From NCBI GenBank assembly GCA_026004675.1, contig BPJP01000014.1, forward strand, positions 1-64,000: a stretch of 64,000 nucleotides of DNA, given 5' to 3'. Shown here in pieces: positions 43,523-51,021 of this stretch. Below the pieces are notes generated by a model that was given only the letters and a program-made list of their open reading frames with translations, was not told where the DNA came from and made no database searches. The stretch comes from Gemmatales bacterium (GTDB lineage: Bacteria > Planctomycetota > Planctomycetia > Gemmatales > Gemmataceae). The position numbers and the translations under genes were made by a program. Every line of letters begins with the position of its first letter. The first letter of the stretch is position 1.

Positions 43523-44566
43523 ATGGTTCAAGCAATCGTACTCTTTGGCATGGTGATGGTACCTGGAGCTGAAGCCCCACCCAGAGATCAGACGGGAGTC
43601 CATTGGGTGCTGCCGTTTACCAAAGCTCATAAAAAGGCCAAAGAAGAGAAGCGCTTGCTGGCGATCAAGCCGATTGCCTTCGGCACGTCGGCTGATGGTG
43701 GCTGGTGACCGGCGGCGGAAATCTTCAGAGCGGGTCCGCTCTGCGACGAACGCATCATTCGACTGCTGAACCGCCGATTTGTGCCGCTTTACTTCGATCT
43801 GTCCGACCGAGGTGCCGCTGCCGATCCCGAAGCCCGCAAATTCGTCGTCGCTCAACGAAAAGAACTGGCCGGGGGCGCCGTCCCCACACCGCCCTTTCTG
43901 CTCATGAATGCCGACGGAAAAGTGCTGGCTGCTGTCAATGCGTATGCCTCGCCCGACCAGATTTACGAGGCCATGCGCAAGGTATTGCGAAACCATCCTG
44001 AGTATGACCAACCCAGCGAAGAGGAAAAGAAGCTGCGATCCCCGATCGAGCGGGCACAAGTTCAGATCGACTTGGGAAATTATGACGAAGCCCGCAAAAT
44101 TCTTAAATCCGTCGACACAGATGAGGCGCATTACCTGCTCGGTCGTTTAGCTCGTTTCGGACGCAATTGGCAGGAAATGGAAAAGCAGTTCGCTTGTGTC
44201 AAGAATGACGCTTTTTCCAATGACATATTGATGGAACGGGCCTACCCGTTGTGGTTCGGCAAAAAGTTCGCCGAACTTCGCGATCACCTGAAAGGGTTTC
44301 CAAAGTCGAGCCGCCGCTATACGGAGGCGCGCTACTACGAAGGTTTGGCCTGGTACCACCTGGGCAAAAAAGACAAAGCATTAGAAATCTGGAAAAGCAC
44401 CATAACCGGTTGCACGCAGGATCCGTGGATCTATCGAGCGGACTGGGCCTACACGACGACAAAGGACAGTGCGCGAGGAATCTTCACCACCGCTGGCAAA
44501 AGAACATCCCTCTTGAACCGCATCGGCTACATGGGGCGGCGCAATCCCGACCTGCAAGGACCATGA
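43523..44566 (+). CDS. Probable selenocysteine-containing thioredoxin-fold TPR protein (in-frame TGA at residue 62)
   Basis: One frame of 348 codons is interrupted only by TGA at 43706-43708. Before it: a weak signal-like start (MVQAIVLFGMVMVPGAEA) and LLAIKPIAFGTSADGGW. After it: PAAEIFRAGPLCDERIIRLL, NRRFVPLYFD, then VPTPPFLLMNADGKVLAAV, the cis-Pro part of a thioredoxin fold. The TGA falls where thioredoxins have the first Cys of WCxxC, so reading it as selenocysteine (U62) gives GGWUPAAE. TPR-like helices follow (about 170-330, ERAQVQIDLGNYDEARKIL). Resolving Cys is absent. The downstream GTG at 43781 lies inside the fold and is no start. The stop overlaps the ECF sigma gene (ATGA). Alternatives: Cys codon mutated or misread to TGA. 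Confidence 0.75.
43706..43743 (+). promoter_or_regulatory. Candidate bacterial SECIS element directly after the in-frame TGA
   Basis: After TGA (43706-43708) and 17 bases, CAGAGCG (43726-43732) pairs perfectly with CGCTCTG (43737-43743) around the loop GGTC (43733-43736). Bacterial SECIS hairpins lie within the coding sequence just 3' of UGA and carry guanines at the start of a small apical loop; E. coli fdhF has GGUCU. The UGA-to-loop distance (24 bases) lies within the range reported for bacterial SECIS models. Structure is by eye; no folding energy computed. Confidence 0.65.
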
Positions 44567-45690
44567 ACCGTGAGCGCTTGGGAGCAGCAGAAATGACGAC
44601 GGCAACTCTTTCGCAGCGGTTTCACGATTGGTTGGCCCGATTTCAGTCGCACGGGTCGGACGCCGAGCTTGTCGAGCGATTTGTTCGCGATCGAGACGAA
44701 AATGCGTTTGCCACCTTGATGGCTCGCCATGGTGCCATGGTGCGAGGTGTGTGCCAGCGTTTGCTGCACCAGGCACAGGATGTGGAAGACGTGTATCAAG
44801 CGACGTTTTTAGTGTTCCTTCAACGTGCGAACCGCATCCGTCGACCGGAAGCGGTCGCGTCGTGGCTGCATGGTGTAGCCCGGCGTTTGGCCTGGAAAAA
44901 GCGCCGCCGGCAGCAGACCGCTGCTGGCGAACCTTTGCCCGAGTCCGCCAGGCAAACGACCGATGAGCTTTCAGTGCGGGAATTCAAAGAAACCATCGAT
45001 GCCGAGATTAGCCGGTTGCCGGAACGCTACCGCAATGTGCTGATTCTCTGCTGCATGGAGGGAAAAACTCGTGATGAAGCGGCCCATCTTTTGGGATGGT
45101 CGGTCCAGTCGGTAAAAGGTCGGTTGGAACGTGCTCGACAAATGCTGCGCTGTCGACTGGAACGCAAAGGAATAGCCTTGGCGATCGCCATGTTCTTGCT
45201 GAAGGAAAGCACGGTTGTCGCCGCTTCGCAAAAGACGCAACATGCCCTCCGTCAAGCGGCGCATGCGTGGCGGAACGGTCAGAATCTGCCTGCCTCGCTT
45301 TCGCCACAAGTTATCGAACTGGCGCATTCCCTTTCTGCTCGTTCTCTTTCGTCTGTTTTGACACGTCTCATGGCGTTGGCAATGGTTTCCGCCACGCTCG
45401 GACTCGGTGCGGCAAACGGGATAGCCGATTTAACCAGAGAAGACAAGGACGACAAGCCGACTGTATTGGCGGTTCGAAGTGACAGGCCAGTTCCTCAAGA
45501 AAGCGCGGCAGCGGCGGTCCCTCAGTCCGCTGCCGAGAAACCAGCGCCTGTGGTTCGAGTGAAGATGGCGATGAGGCAACCGCTTAAACGGCTCCACGTT
45601 GCCGCCACGATACATCGGACGAAAGGGCAGGACCAACGCTTGCCGATCCATGTCCAGTCTGTGCGGGCGCACGTGGTGGGACCGGAATAG
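44563..45690 (+). CDS. ECF-type RNA polymerase sigma factor with C-terminal extension
   Basis: A 375-residue sigma factor. Region 2 (about residues 30-105): LVERFVRDRDENAFATLMAR, DVEDVYQATFLVFLQRA, VASWLHGVARRLAWKKRRR. Region 4 (about 145-205): LPERYRNVLILCCMEGKTRD and GWSVQSVKGRLERARQML. A further 170 residues follow, with a hydrophobic segment (about 270-295, LMALAMVSATLGLGAANGIA) that could be a TM helix with a Pro/Ala/Lys-rich tail, as in planctomycete ECF factors with fused signalling domains. ATG 44563 overlaps the upstream stop (ATGA); 44593 is an alternative start. It abuts the convergent sigma gene by 1 base. Confidence 0.92.
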   Translation: MNRERLGAAEMTTATLSQRFHDWLARFQSHGSDAELVERFVRDRDENAFATLMARHGAMVRGVCQRLLHQAQDVEDVYQATFLVFLQRANRIRRPEAVASWLHGVARRLAWKKRRRQQTAAGEPLPESARQTTDELSVREFKETIDAEISRLPERYRNVLILCCMEGKTRDEAAHLLGWSVQSVKGRLERARQMLRCRLERKGIALAIAMFLLKESTVVAASQKTQHALRQAAHAWRNGQNLPASLSPQVIELAHSLSARSLSSVLTRLMALAMVSATLGLGAANGIADLTREDKDDKPTVLAVRSDRPVPQESAAAAVPQSAAEKPAPVVRVKMAMRQPLKRLHVAATIHRTKGQDQRLPIHVQSVRAHVVGPE

Positions 45691-45691
45691 G

Positions 45692-47248
45692 TTAGTCGTC
45701 CTTGCAAGCGTCTTCGGTGAAACCTTCTAGTCGTCGGCTTCGCAAAGGCTGGCGCAGCTTGAACAGCCCGCGAGCCTCGATCTGCCGAATCCTTTCCCGC
45801 GTGATGCCGTAAACCTTGGCAACTTCGTCGAGCGTACGCGGATTCCCGTCGTTCAGACCGAAGCGAAGCTCGATCACTTCCCGTTCGCGTGGCGCCAGCG
45901 AGCGCAGCACTTCGTTAATGCGTTCACGCAAGAGATTCTGATCGACCATTTGCCCGGGGTTGCTGGCTGAGCTATCCCGCAAGAACTCCTCGAGAACTCG
46001 CTCGCCTTCGGTCCCGAGAGGTTCGTTCAAGCTGATAGGGTGTCGACCGACGGCCCGCAGAGAACGCATCTCTTCGACGGATATGTTCATCAGCTTGGCG
46101 ATCTCTTCATTGGTTGGTTCACGGCCGGTTTTGCCGAAAAACTCCGCTCGTATCCGCTCGATATTCGCCAACGCTGCCACCTGATGGCAAGGAACCCGAA
46201 CGGTACGGGCATGATCCGCCAGTGCACGGGTAATCCCCTGGCGAATCCACCAGGTTGCATACGTGCCGAACTTGAAGCCAAGGCGGTGTTCGAACTTGTC
46301 GACAGCCCGCATCAAACCGCGATTGCCTTCCTGGATCAGGTCGGCAAAAGCCAATCCGCGATTGCGATAGCGTTTGGCAATGGAAACAACCAGCCGGAGA
46401 TTCGCCTCGGCCAACTCGCTGCGAATTTGCTGGTATTCGGCCTGTCGCCGCTTGATCACAGCCGCCAAGGCCTGCAACTCATCCGGAAACGCTCGCAATT
46501 CGGCAAGATTATCGCGCAGTTCCTTGACGGCGCGAGCCCTCTGTTCGCGATCGGCACGCGACAAAGCGCGTTGTTCCGCTCGTTCGTTCAGTTGCCCGAC
46601 GGATTGGACACGTTTGACGAATGCTTCTGCCCAGCGTTCCAGCAGGTCGGTGCGCGGCGACAGCTCATCCGCCAGCCTGGCGGCCTTGCGCAGTTGTCGC
46701 CACAGAACCCGGCTCCAGCGGGCCTTGGCCGCCGCCTTCGTAGTCCGCATCCGCGACCGAAAACCGCTTCGCGATTGCTCCAGGATGCGACGCAAGGTAC
46801 GCAGGTTATGAGGCAACCGCGCCTGAATCTGATCCCGGCTACGGTTCATGCTGGTGACGATGTCCACCATCGGATCCAAGGCGAGCTCCCCTGCCTGGAT
46901 CTGGGTGAAAACCTCCACCACTTTTTCAAGCACAGCCCAGCTGCAAAGAGCGGCATGGCGAAATCGGTTCCGTGCTCGTTCCAAGCGATAGGCAAGGTCC
47001 AGTTCTTGCGGACGCGTCAAGAGAGGAATCGACCCCATTTGCCGCAAGTACAATCCCAGTGCATCGTCAAGGGACCGGCTTGTGCTCTCCTCTGTCGCTG
47101 GAGCCGCTGCCTCGTCCCAATCGGTTTCGTATGCACCGTCCATGCCCTTTTTCATCTTCGCTTCCTTACGATCAGGGGTAGAGGTCGTCTCATGCGATGA
47201 AGTAGACTTTCGTGTGCTCTCCGTTTTATCTATGCGCGATTTCATCAT
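45692..47248 (-). CDS. Sigma-70 family RNA polymerase sigma factor (SigA/RpoD-like)
   Basis: A 518-residue group 1/2 sigma factor. Region 1.2: [21 protein letters not shown] non-conserved helical insert (about residues 90-230, rich in Arg/Ala) precedes region 2 ([60 protein letters not shown]). Region 3 is [20 protein letters not shown] and region 4 [38 protein letters not shown]. It lacks the acidic 1.1 domain of a standard primary RpoD, so an alternative group-2 factor is possible. TTG at 47281 and ATG at 47155 are other start options. Confidence 0.93.
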
Positions 47249-47632
47249 TCGCCCAGTCTGTTCCGATACTTCTGCCAACAAGGCTACCTAAAGGACGACG
47301 CCCATCGCGCGGAGTGTATTCAATGCACGGCGCATGGGACAGTCTTTCTACGCACGCCTGGTCCAAATCGTTCATTGGTGCCGGCGCTGCTTCGATCGCT
47401 GCGGAGACGAACGATAACCAATCGAAAGTATCGCTCCTACTTAATCTTACGTAATTGTTTGCCCATTTTCCAGCGCTTGCGAGAAATTCAGCGAGATTTC
47501 TTGCGGAAACGATAGAAATGTTTCATGAACTGAAGACCAGGGCTTGTCGTGGTCATTCGGCGCGCGAAATGTCCCCGCCATCGTTTTTTGTCAGCAGGAC
47601 GGTAAGGCGGGCAGGTCGAATGAGAAGGCTTG
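47249..47632. other. Intergenic region without a recognised gene
   Basis: Between the sigma-factor start and the end of the aminotransferase gene. Open frames in it lack homology or ribosome sites. It contains the sigma-factor promoter and presumably the transcript end of the aminotransferase. An AT-rich patch (TACTTAATCTTACGTAATTG, about 47437-47456) is the only notable feature. Confidence 0.4.
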
Positions 47633-49848: not shown

Positions 49849-51021
49849 TCAGCGTCGGCGGTTGTAGTTGACGGGCCGGGTGGGGTTGCCCCGGATCTGG
49901 TCGAGACGTATCTGGGCGGCGTCTGCCTGTCGCGTTCCGGGAAACGTGACGATGACTTTTTCGAGACAAAGCATAGCCTCGTGGGGTTGCCCTTTGGCAA
50001 GCCAGGTTTCCGCCAGGGAAAGATACAGCCCGCCGAGCCGATTGCTCAGCGTGTCGCACGCCTGACGAAGCCATTCGGGATTGGCTTTGATTTCGTTGGC
50101 CAAACGGATGGCTTCCATCCCCTCGGACAGATCGGTGTAATTTTGGGCAAGTTGCTCGCAGTGCTCGAGGCAGATGAGGAACTGTTTGTTGTCGTAGGCT
50201 TCGCGTGCTTGGGCGAGCAATTCGCGAGCGCGCTGGCTTCGTTGATCGACTTTCGGTGGGGCAGCTGCCTGAATGGCCCAGGCTTTGACGAGTGGTCCTG
50301 CTTCGACGGCGGCTTGGGTGCCGGCAAACGATTTGAGAACGTCGGTGGCCAATTCGATAGCCTGTTTGGTTTGGCCAGTGGAATGCAACAGTTTGGCCTG
50401 GTCGAGTTTTTGAGTTCCCTTGCTTTCGAGTTGGGCAAGCAGTTCTTTCGCTTTGATCTGGACAGGACGTTGTTTGCCGTCCTCCACCAGTCCGCGAAGC
50501 AGAGCGATGGCGCGAGCGAAATCCGATTCACTGATGGCTTTTTTGGCTTCGGCAAAATCTCGGGTCATCCATTCGGGATTGCTGAGGCTGGCGAGCGCTC
50601 TGTTGAGGTGCCCCTGAAAACGGGTGGCATCCATATAGCCTTCGAGCGTGGCGAGGATTTTGCCATCGGGAGCGGCCAGGACGACGGTAGGATAGGCCTG
50701 TATTTGCAGAGCATCGACCAGACTAGGATTACTCGGTGCATGGATTTTAAGAGGGATGAACTCTTTATTGACGATTTCGACGATGGTGGGGTGGCGCATG
50801 GTGGTTTTGTCCAGACGGACGCAGTAGTAGCAGTTGTTGGTGCCGATATCCAGGAGGAGAGGGAGGTTTTTCTTCTGGGCCAGACTGCGTGCGAGGTTGT
50901 AGTCGTAGTACCAATGGATTTCCTCGGCGCGAAGTGGTGCGGCTTGCACGAGCAGGACAGCGGCAAGCCAAAGCCATTGCATGTGGCGAAAAGGGCTCCT
51001 GCCCCTCATTGACGACTTCAT
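49849..51021 (-). CDS. Secreted thioredoxin-fold protein with TPR-like helices
   Basis: A 390-residue protein. Signal peptide about residues 14-32 (MQWLWLAAVLLVQAAPLRAE). Thioredoxin-like domain about 33-140: LARSLAQKKNLPLLLDIGTN, then the CxxC site NCYYCVRLDKTTM, HPTIVEIVNKEFIPLKI, and the cis-Pro segment IQAYPTVVLAAPDGKIL. The remainder (about 150-380) is TPR-like helical repeats (DFARAIALLRGLVEDGKQ, TKQAIELATDVLKS, AMLCLEKVIVTFPG). It shares this Trx-plus-TPR architecture with the candidate selenoprotein at 43523. AAAGGAG upstream supports ATG 51021. Confidence 0.85.
   Translation of the reverse strand: MKSSMRGRSPFRHMQWLWLAAVLLVQAAPLRAEEIHWYYDYNLARSLAQKKNLPLLLDIGTNNCYYCVRLDKTTMRHPTIVEIVNKEFIPLKIHAPSNPSLVDALQIQAYPTVVLAAPDGKILATLEGYMDATRFQGHLNRALASLSNPEWMTRDFAEAKKAISESDFARAIALLRGLVEDGKQRPVQIKAKELLAQLESKGTQKLDQAKLLHSTGQTKQAIELATDVLKSFAGTQAAVEAGPLVKAWAIQAAAPPKVDQRSQRARELLAQAREAYDNKQFLICLEHCEQLAQNYTDLSEGMEAIRLANEIKANPEWLRQACDTLSNRLGGLYLSLAETWLAKGQPHEAMLCLEKVIVTFPGTRQADAAQIRLDQIRGNPTRPVNYNRRR

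Follow-up and report, generated by a model that had tools for sequence, protein, structure and literature searches.

A thioredoxin-TPR gene with an in-frame TGA in a Gemmatales bacterium: computational evidence for selenocysteine decoding and for a selenoprotein family in Planctomycetota

Selenocysteine (Sec) decoding at UGA codon 62 of a thioredoxin-TPR gene from a Gemmatales bacterium is strongly supported by several independent computational lines. The gene is located on the plus strand at 43523..44566 of the window, i.e. the whole stretch of 64,000 nucleotides that we analyzed (C14:1-64000, part of a draft host genome of 6.03 Mb in 37 contigs, 91% complete), and comprises 347 codons followed by the terminator TGA at 44564-44566. 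From the sequence comparisons described below we regard it as almost certain that codon 62 (TGA, 43706..43708, plus strand, motif GGW-U-PAAE) encodes Sec. We also consider it very likely that the gene product as a whole is an exported, Sec-decoded thioredoxin-TPR protein acting along the lines proposed below. It is a member of a large selenoprotein family that is absent from Pfam, NCBIfam and a 2026 inventory of prokaryotic selenoproteins (PMC13188914).

Reading frame and conservation of the TGA codon

The first-pass annotation had described a frame of 348 codons with a single TGA at 43706-43708, encoding a TPR-containing protein that is continuous and thioredoxin-like on both sides of this codon, with the TGA at the N-terminal active-site position. 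Translation agreed with this description: the only internal stop is the TGA at codon 62, and the remaining 347-codon frame is open up to the terminator. GC content at the three codon positions is 0.62/0.44/0.57 before the internal TGA and 0.59/0.44/0.63 after it, resembling the adjacent genes. On either side of the TGA 22 TPR orthologs could be aligned to the window protein with 24–60% identity. An AF2 model built with these 22 orthologs (pLDDT 89.6, pTM 0.87) bears out the domain order: a thioredoxin-fold domain (residues 28-157, 43604..43993, plus strand) is followed by a TPR-like helical domain (residues 166-315, 44018..44467, plus strand). Sec62 directly precedes helix 63-70, at its N terminus, and is separated from a conserved LLN by 21 residues, a spacing shared by the leading Cys of the CxxC motif in those Cys-type relatives that were inspected. 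The MAFFT/HMM alignment of the CxxC outgroup carries a three-residue ambiguity in some rows, and the equivalence of Sec with the first Cys therefore rests on this spacing and on the AF2 helix.

When the read-through protein was used as query against 59 relatives, matches were obtained in 18, many of them with one TGA, and in the translations this TGA falls at an identical position (NWUPGAE, RCUGGA, LGCVUNNGV and others). The TPR form is present in four genomes of the order, with TGA in all four. We searched 392 Planctomycetota genomes with a profile of the thioredoxin domain, and 152 matched at E<=1e-6; among the matches listed (to E 3e-11) all but five contain exactly one TGA, and two of these five begin past the Sec column. 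At the codon-62 column the 123 distinct matches in the fetched loci carry TGA in 108 cases, Cys in 11 and Pro, Asp, Asp or Asn in the remaining four; neither TAA nor TAG occurs among them. Relatives with Cys or TGA at this codon were what the first-pass annotation had named as support for its selenoprotein proposal. Nine of the 11 Cys matches are classical CxxC thioredoxins and two lie within the family. Since the same TGA is kept in more than 100 diverged sequences, a chance occurrence is excluded. The relatives keeping it span many Planctomycetota families. In the tree a seven-member CxxC outgroup is separated with 100/100 support from 112 family members, 106 of which carry Sec, and four non-Sec members group in one small clade. 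The first-pass suggestion that the protein may represent a new, TPR-fused branch holds for the TPR clade and is an understatement for the whole, as this clade is one of several in a phylum-wide family.

A contig scan yielded only three named loci; the closest named relatives come from a MAG of the Planctomycetota (WSZJ01000106.1, 52%) and from one that carries the label Rubritalea (CAKZNV010000149.1, 44%), and the TGA as well as selA are found in both. The presence of the latter TGA-bearing ortholog in a MAG assigned to the Verrucomicrobiota may reflect either horizontal transfer or mis-binning.

Apart from the window gene the host genome contains five more family members with an in-frame TGA, belonging to several clades (C3:290182, C6:46455, C7:34505, C4:286549 and C2:838042). 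In the profile search of Planctomycetota genomes two genomes reached ten family matches (G227, G389) and one reached nine (G157), which suggests large unannotated selenoproteomes in some Planctomycetota.

Downstream hairpin, Sec machinery and alternative explanations

Downstream of the TGA we found a candidate bacterial SECIS hairpin, CAGAGCG-GGUC-CGCUCUG (43726..43743, plus strand), which spans 17–35 nt after the UGA; 17 nt separate the UGA from the stem and 24 nt separate it from the GGUC loop. Stability was assessed in 89 nonredundant members with synonymous-codon permutations, a test that presupposes no structure. Windows of 33 nt starting at +6 and +12 from the T of TGA were more stable than the permuted sequences by 1.75 and 2.28 kcal/mol (t = -7.3 and -8.4, respectively). 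From -90 to +240 no comparable stabilization was detected elsewhere in these 89 members, and windows right after the hairpin were less stable than permuted ones. Covariation was likewise strong. In 49 members of the xUNN/GNG clade, a set picked by protein motif, pairing in the 5-bp stem reaches 92.7% of cells as compared to 26–42% in slid registers, and 44 double-sided stem changes were counted against 12.5 in shuffles. Among 17 members with the hairpin register of the window the stem is paired to 99%, a figure that is somewhat circular as this set was partly picked for the common register; three of the pairs are changed on both sides. When considering the best hairpins of 106 members, the loop mostly starts 18–24 nt after the UGA, and in 105 a G is located within the first three loop nucleotides. 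Judged by these sequence patterns, the conserved, covarying hairpin downstream of the UGA is a bacterial SECIS element.

The complete set of Sec genes that the first-pass annotation had pointed to was found in the host genome: selA (E 2e-148), selB (384 bits, cut-off 242), selD (370 bits, above cut-off) and a tRNA-Sec (72.6 bits), called tRNA-SeC with anticodon tca (UCA) by ARAGORN. The host SelD itself contains an in-frame TGA, read as SCAGUAGKL, at the known Sec position of SelD. Across the sample, strong SelA matches occur in 75 of the 78 genomes with a TGA member (among the matches listed) compared to 239 of all 392 (odds ratio 23, p = 3e-15). Several of the sampled genomes are incomplete MAGs; the three exceptions are either incomplete MAGs or genomes with merely a weak partial SelA match. 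Sec genes have been reported for several planctomycetes (PMC4807772).

We weighed these data against other readings of the internal TGA. A single substitution in a draft assembly of 37 contigs is enough to turn TGC or TGG into TGA, be it by sequencing or assembly error or by a recent nonsense mutation leaving a pseudogene. Such an origin is refuted at the family level, where the same TGA, never TAA or TAG, is fixed in more than 100 distinct sequences of low identity; at the window gene itself it is a negligible prospect, given a hairpin under selection just downstream and codon-position GC that stays intact 3' of the TGA. That many genes of these genomes read through UGA would also be expected if the codon were reassigned genome-wide to an ordinary amino acid, as in Trp or Gly codes. 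UGA is, however, an ordinary terminator here as well, ending the window gene itself and 49 of the 108 family members, while the internal UGA is confined to one redox position and a dedicated tRNA-Sec is present together with SelA, SelB and SelD, so that we give reassignment virtually no credence.

An ORF with a GTG start at 43781, 3' of the internal TGA, would allow for two genes or for regulated termination, with the N-terminal piece of 61 amino acids as main product and a restart at this GTG. Because bacterial Sec decoding is seldom complete, some truncated product is probably made alongside the full-length protein. As an account of the locus this arrangement is nevertheless very unlikely: alignment and thioredoxin fold continue over the TGA without interruption, the fold needs both parts, the SECIS is conserved and SelA co-occurs.

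Active site, genomic context and possible function

AF2 and Foldseek agree on a thioredoxin fold for the window protein. Its active site reads W-U-P-A-A-E (UxxA) and lacks a C/U-x-x-C redox motif. The first-pass annotation had stated that there is no resolving Cys, which is true for position Sec+3 of the window protein. Recurrent Cys residues were found at -1 in the CU clade (19/19), at -2 in xUNN (46/51) and at +26 in LUSAG (10/12), whereas only 8 of 26 members of the WUP clade have Cys at -2; a recurrent Cys at Sec+3 was found in no clade of the family. As a possible counterpart of the cis-Pro loop that thioredoxins have opposite the active site, the branch of the window protein shows the segment V-P-T-P-P-F (residues 120-125) ahead of a strand; in the alignment this segment is absent from the branch formed by L011 and L012. 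The N terminus resembles a signal peptide (MVQAIVLFGMVMVPGAEA, 43523..43576, plus strand) and was modeled by AF2 with low confidence, in keeping with a leader. A crude hydrophobicity test scored a hydrophobic N-terminal stretch in 99 of 108 relatives, which makes export of the family proteins likely. Since the signal peptide was judged from its hydrophobicity, the window protein may alternatively be cytoplasmic.

Immediately downstream follows an ECF-type sigma factor gene on the same strand (44563..45690), whose ATG overlaps the stop codon of the selenoprotein gene (ATGA); a translationally coupled operon is therefore likely. An ECF neighbor is present in three of the four members of the order: relatives of the sigma factor adjoin the TPR ortholog on the same strand in G026 and lie one gene off in G039, while none was found in G085 or beside most TPR orthologs outside the order. 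Furthermore, no more than nine strong relatives of this ECF factor are encoded in the host genome (6 Mb). The ECF gene is followed on the opposite strand by a primary-type sigma-70 gene (45692-47281, minus strand).

Four loci (L013, L057, L077 and L130) encode an ECF sigma factor fused to a thioredoxin-like domain of the family, where Pro, Asp or Cys takes the place of Sec. Such fusions were found in G018, G081 (twice) and G310, the last one immediately upstream of a Sec paralog. It is possible that the fused domain represents a sensor that has lost selenium.

The overlapping start codon, the same-strand neighbors in G026 and G039, the fusions and the small number of ECF relatives of this type would all suit a protein in which Sec is real and which acts chiefly as redox sensor for the neighboring sigma factor instead of as a repair or chaperedoxin enzyme. 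We regard this role as unlikely, since G085 and most TPR orthologs outside the order lack an ECF neighbor and the fused versions are devoid of Sec. A functional link between ECF factor and selenoprotein that is restricted to part of the family is plausible. A broader joint reading, in which Sec is ancestral and near-obligatory in the family, Cys forms are rare and derived, the resolving Cys has been relocated by clade and the protein of the host order is a redox sensor acting on a membrane-anchored ECF sigma factor, seems doubtful to us in its entirety.

Neighborhood clustering revealed no partner gene common to all clades. In the GGLUSAGH clade (L138, L140, L145, L147, L152 and relatives) the same upstream gene recurs in five loci at a mean distance of -7.6 nt, and the example begins FHA-like. 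The window contains in addition a Cys-type thioredoxin gene (49849-51021, minus strand; NNCYYCVRLD) with a repeat-like C-terminal half, adjoining a tyrosine recombinase (XerC-like). Its product represents a CxxC version of the architecture seen in the selenoprotein.

We propose that SelB, carrying Sec-tRNA(UCA) and directed by the downstream SECIS hairpin, would insert Sec at UGA-62 during translation. The residue would occupy the nucleophile position of the thioredoxin fold, with no Cys at +3 and with the TPR repeats following. The chemistry is probably monothiol (1-Sec): the selenolate would attack a disulfide, a sulfenic acid or a peroxide on a substrate bound to the TPR domain; an external thiol or a partner reductase could then resolve the selenenylsulfide so formed. 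In sister clades the Cys at -1, -2 or +26 may serve as resolving residue. Via the overlapping ECF gene, expression or signaling might be linked to redox stress in the envelope. The function we tentatively put first, drawing only on the fold and the active-site position, is that of an exported chaperedoxin-like reductase based on selenium.

Relation to known selenoproteins and thioredoxin-fold families

Pfam and NCBIfam hold no model that claims the window protein. Sec usually replaces Cys in families in which Cys is the norm, and selenoprotein discovery pipelines depend on Cys homologs. By its own statement, deep-Sep may filter out selenoproteins without Cys homologs (PMC12013277). Among the 119 families and subfamilies of prokaryotic selenoproteins in the 2026 inventory, no thioredoxin-like one has UxxA (PMC13188914). 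The family described here is almost entirely Sec-containing and has no Pfam or NCBIfam model, and its genes are probably annotated as truncated. Single genomes hold up to ten profile matches, and the family may account for much of the selenoproteome of planctomycetes. It opens to experiment why an entire phylum retains Sec in redox proteins that are exported, and how the thioredoxin fold can function when Sec is present and the customary second Cys is missing. If the sensor-coupled reading of the family were true, it would imply selenium-based transcriptional control in the order of the window.

Sec-containing thioredoxin (UxxC; PF00085) and other thioredoxin-fold selenoproteins of the inventory (PMC13188914) share with the window protein the fold, the N-terminal active-site Sec and a SECIS after the UGA. 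In contrast to UxxC thioredoxin, the window protein has UxxA without Cys at +3 and an additional C-terminal TPR domain, and its family contains almost no Cys homologs. On the window protein all Pfam thioredoxin models stay below their cut-offs, and it could not be filed under thioredoxin proper (PF00085), as the fold agrees but UPAA stands in place of C/U-x-x-C. The nearest catalogued group are the VPGUxxT proteins (NCBIfam NF041382/NF041383; OS_HP5), likewise thioredoxin-like (seleno)proteins. They differ in motif and C-terminal domains, and membership was rejected: the window protein gave no match, and relatives, from some sister clades, scored at most 18.5 bits against cut-offs of 350 and 275.

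The isolated thioredoxin domain found its best structure matches among DsbH, cDsbD, AGR2 and related extracytoplasmic folds (3f9u, 2ju5, 7tkv, 1vrs). DUF255/Thioredoxin_7 (Pfam) shows weak profile similarity, and assignment to DUF255/Thioredox_DsbH (PF03190) fails with 12.8 bits against a gathering cut-off of 27. In the known members of the DsbH/DUF255/cDsbD/AGR2-like group the active site is built on Cys (CxxC or CxxS), whereas the window protein uses Sec without a second Cys.

For the whole chain the best Foldseek match is E. coli YbbN/CnoX (PDB 3qou), with a low TM-score of 0.21. CnoX is cytoplasmic, and its reactive Cys is located elsewhere than Sec62. Like the window protein, this chaperedoxin consists of a thioredoxin domain followed by a TPR domain; its motif is SxxC or CxxC without Sec (PMC8129009). 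Membership in the CnoX sequence family was rejected, as no CnoX-family model was among the Pfam/NCBIfam matches and the motif is UxxA, not S/CxxC. The chaperedoxins of the CnoX/YbbN type would be the nearest functional analogue, here in an extracytoplasmic and selenium-based form.
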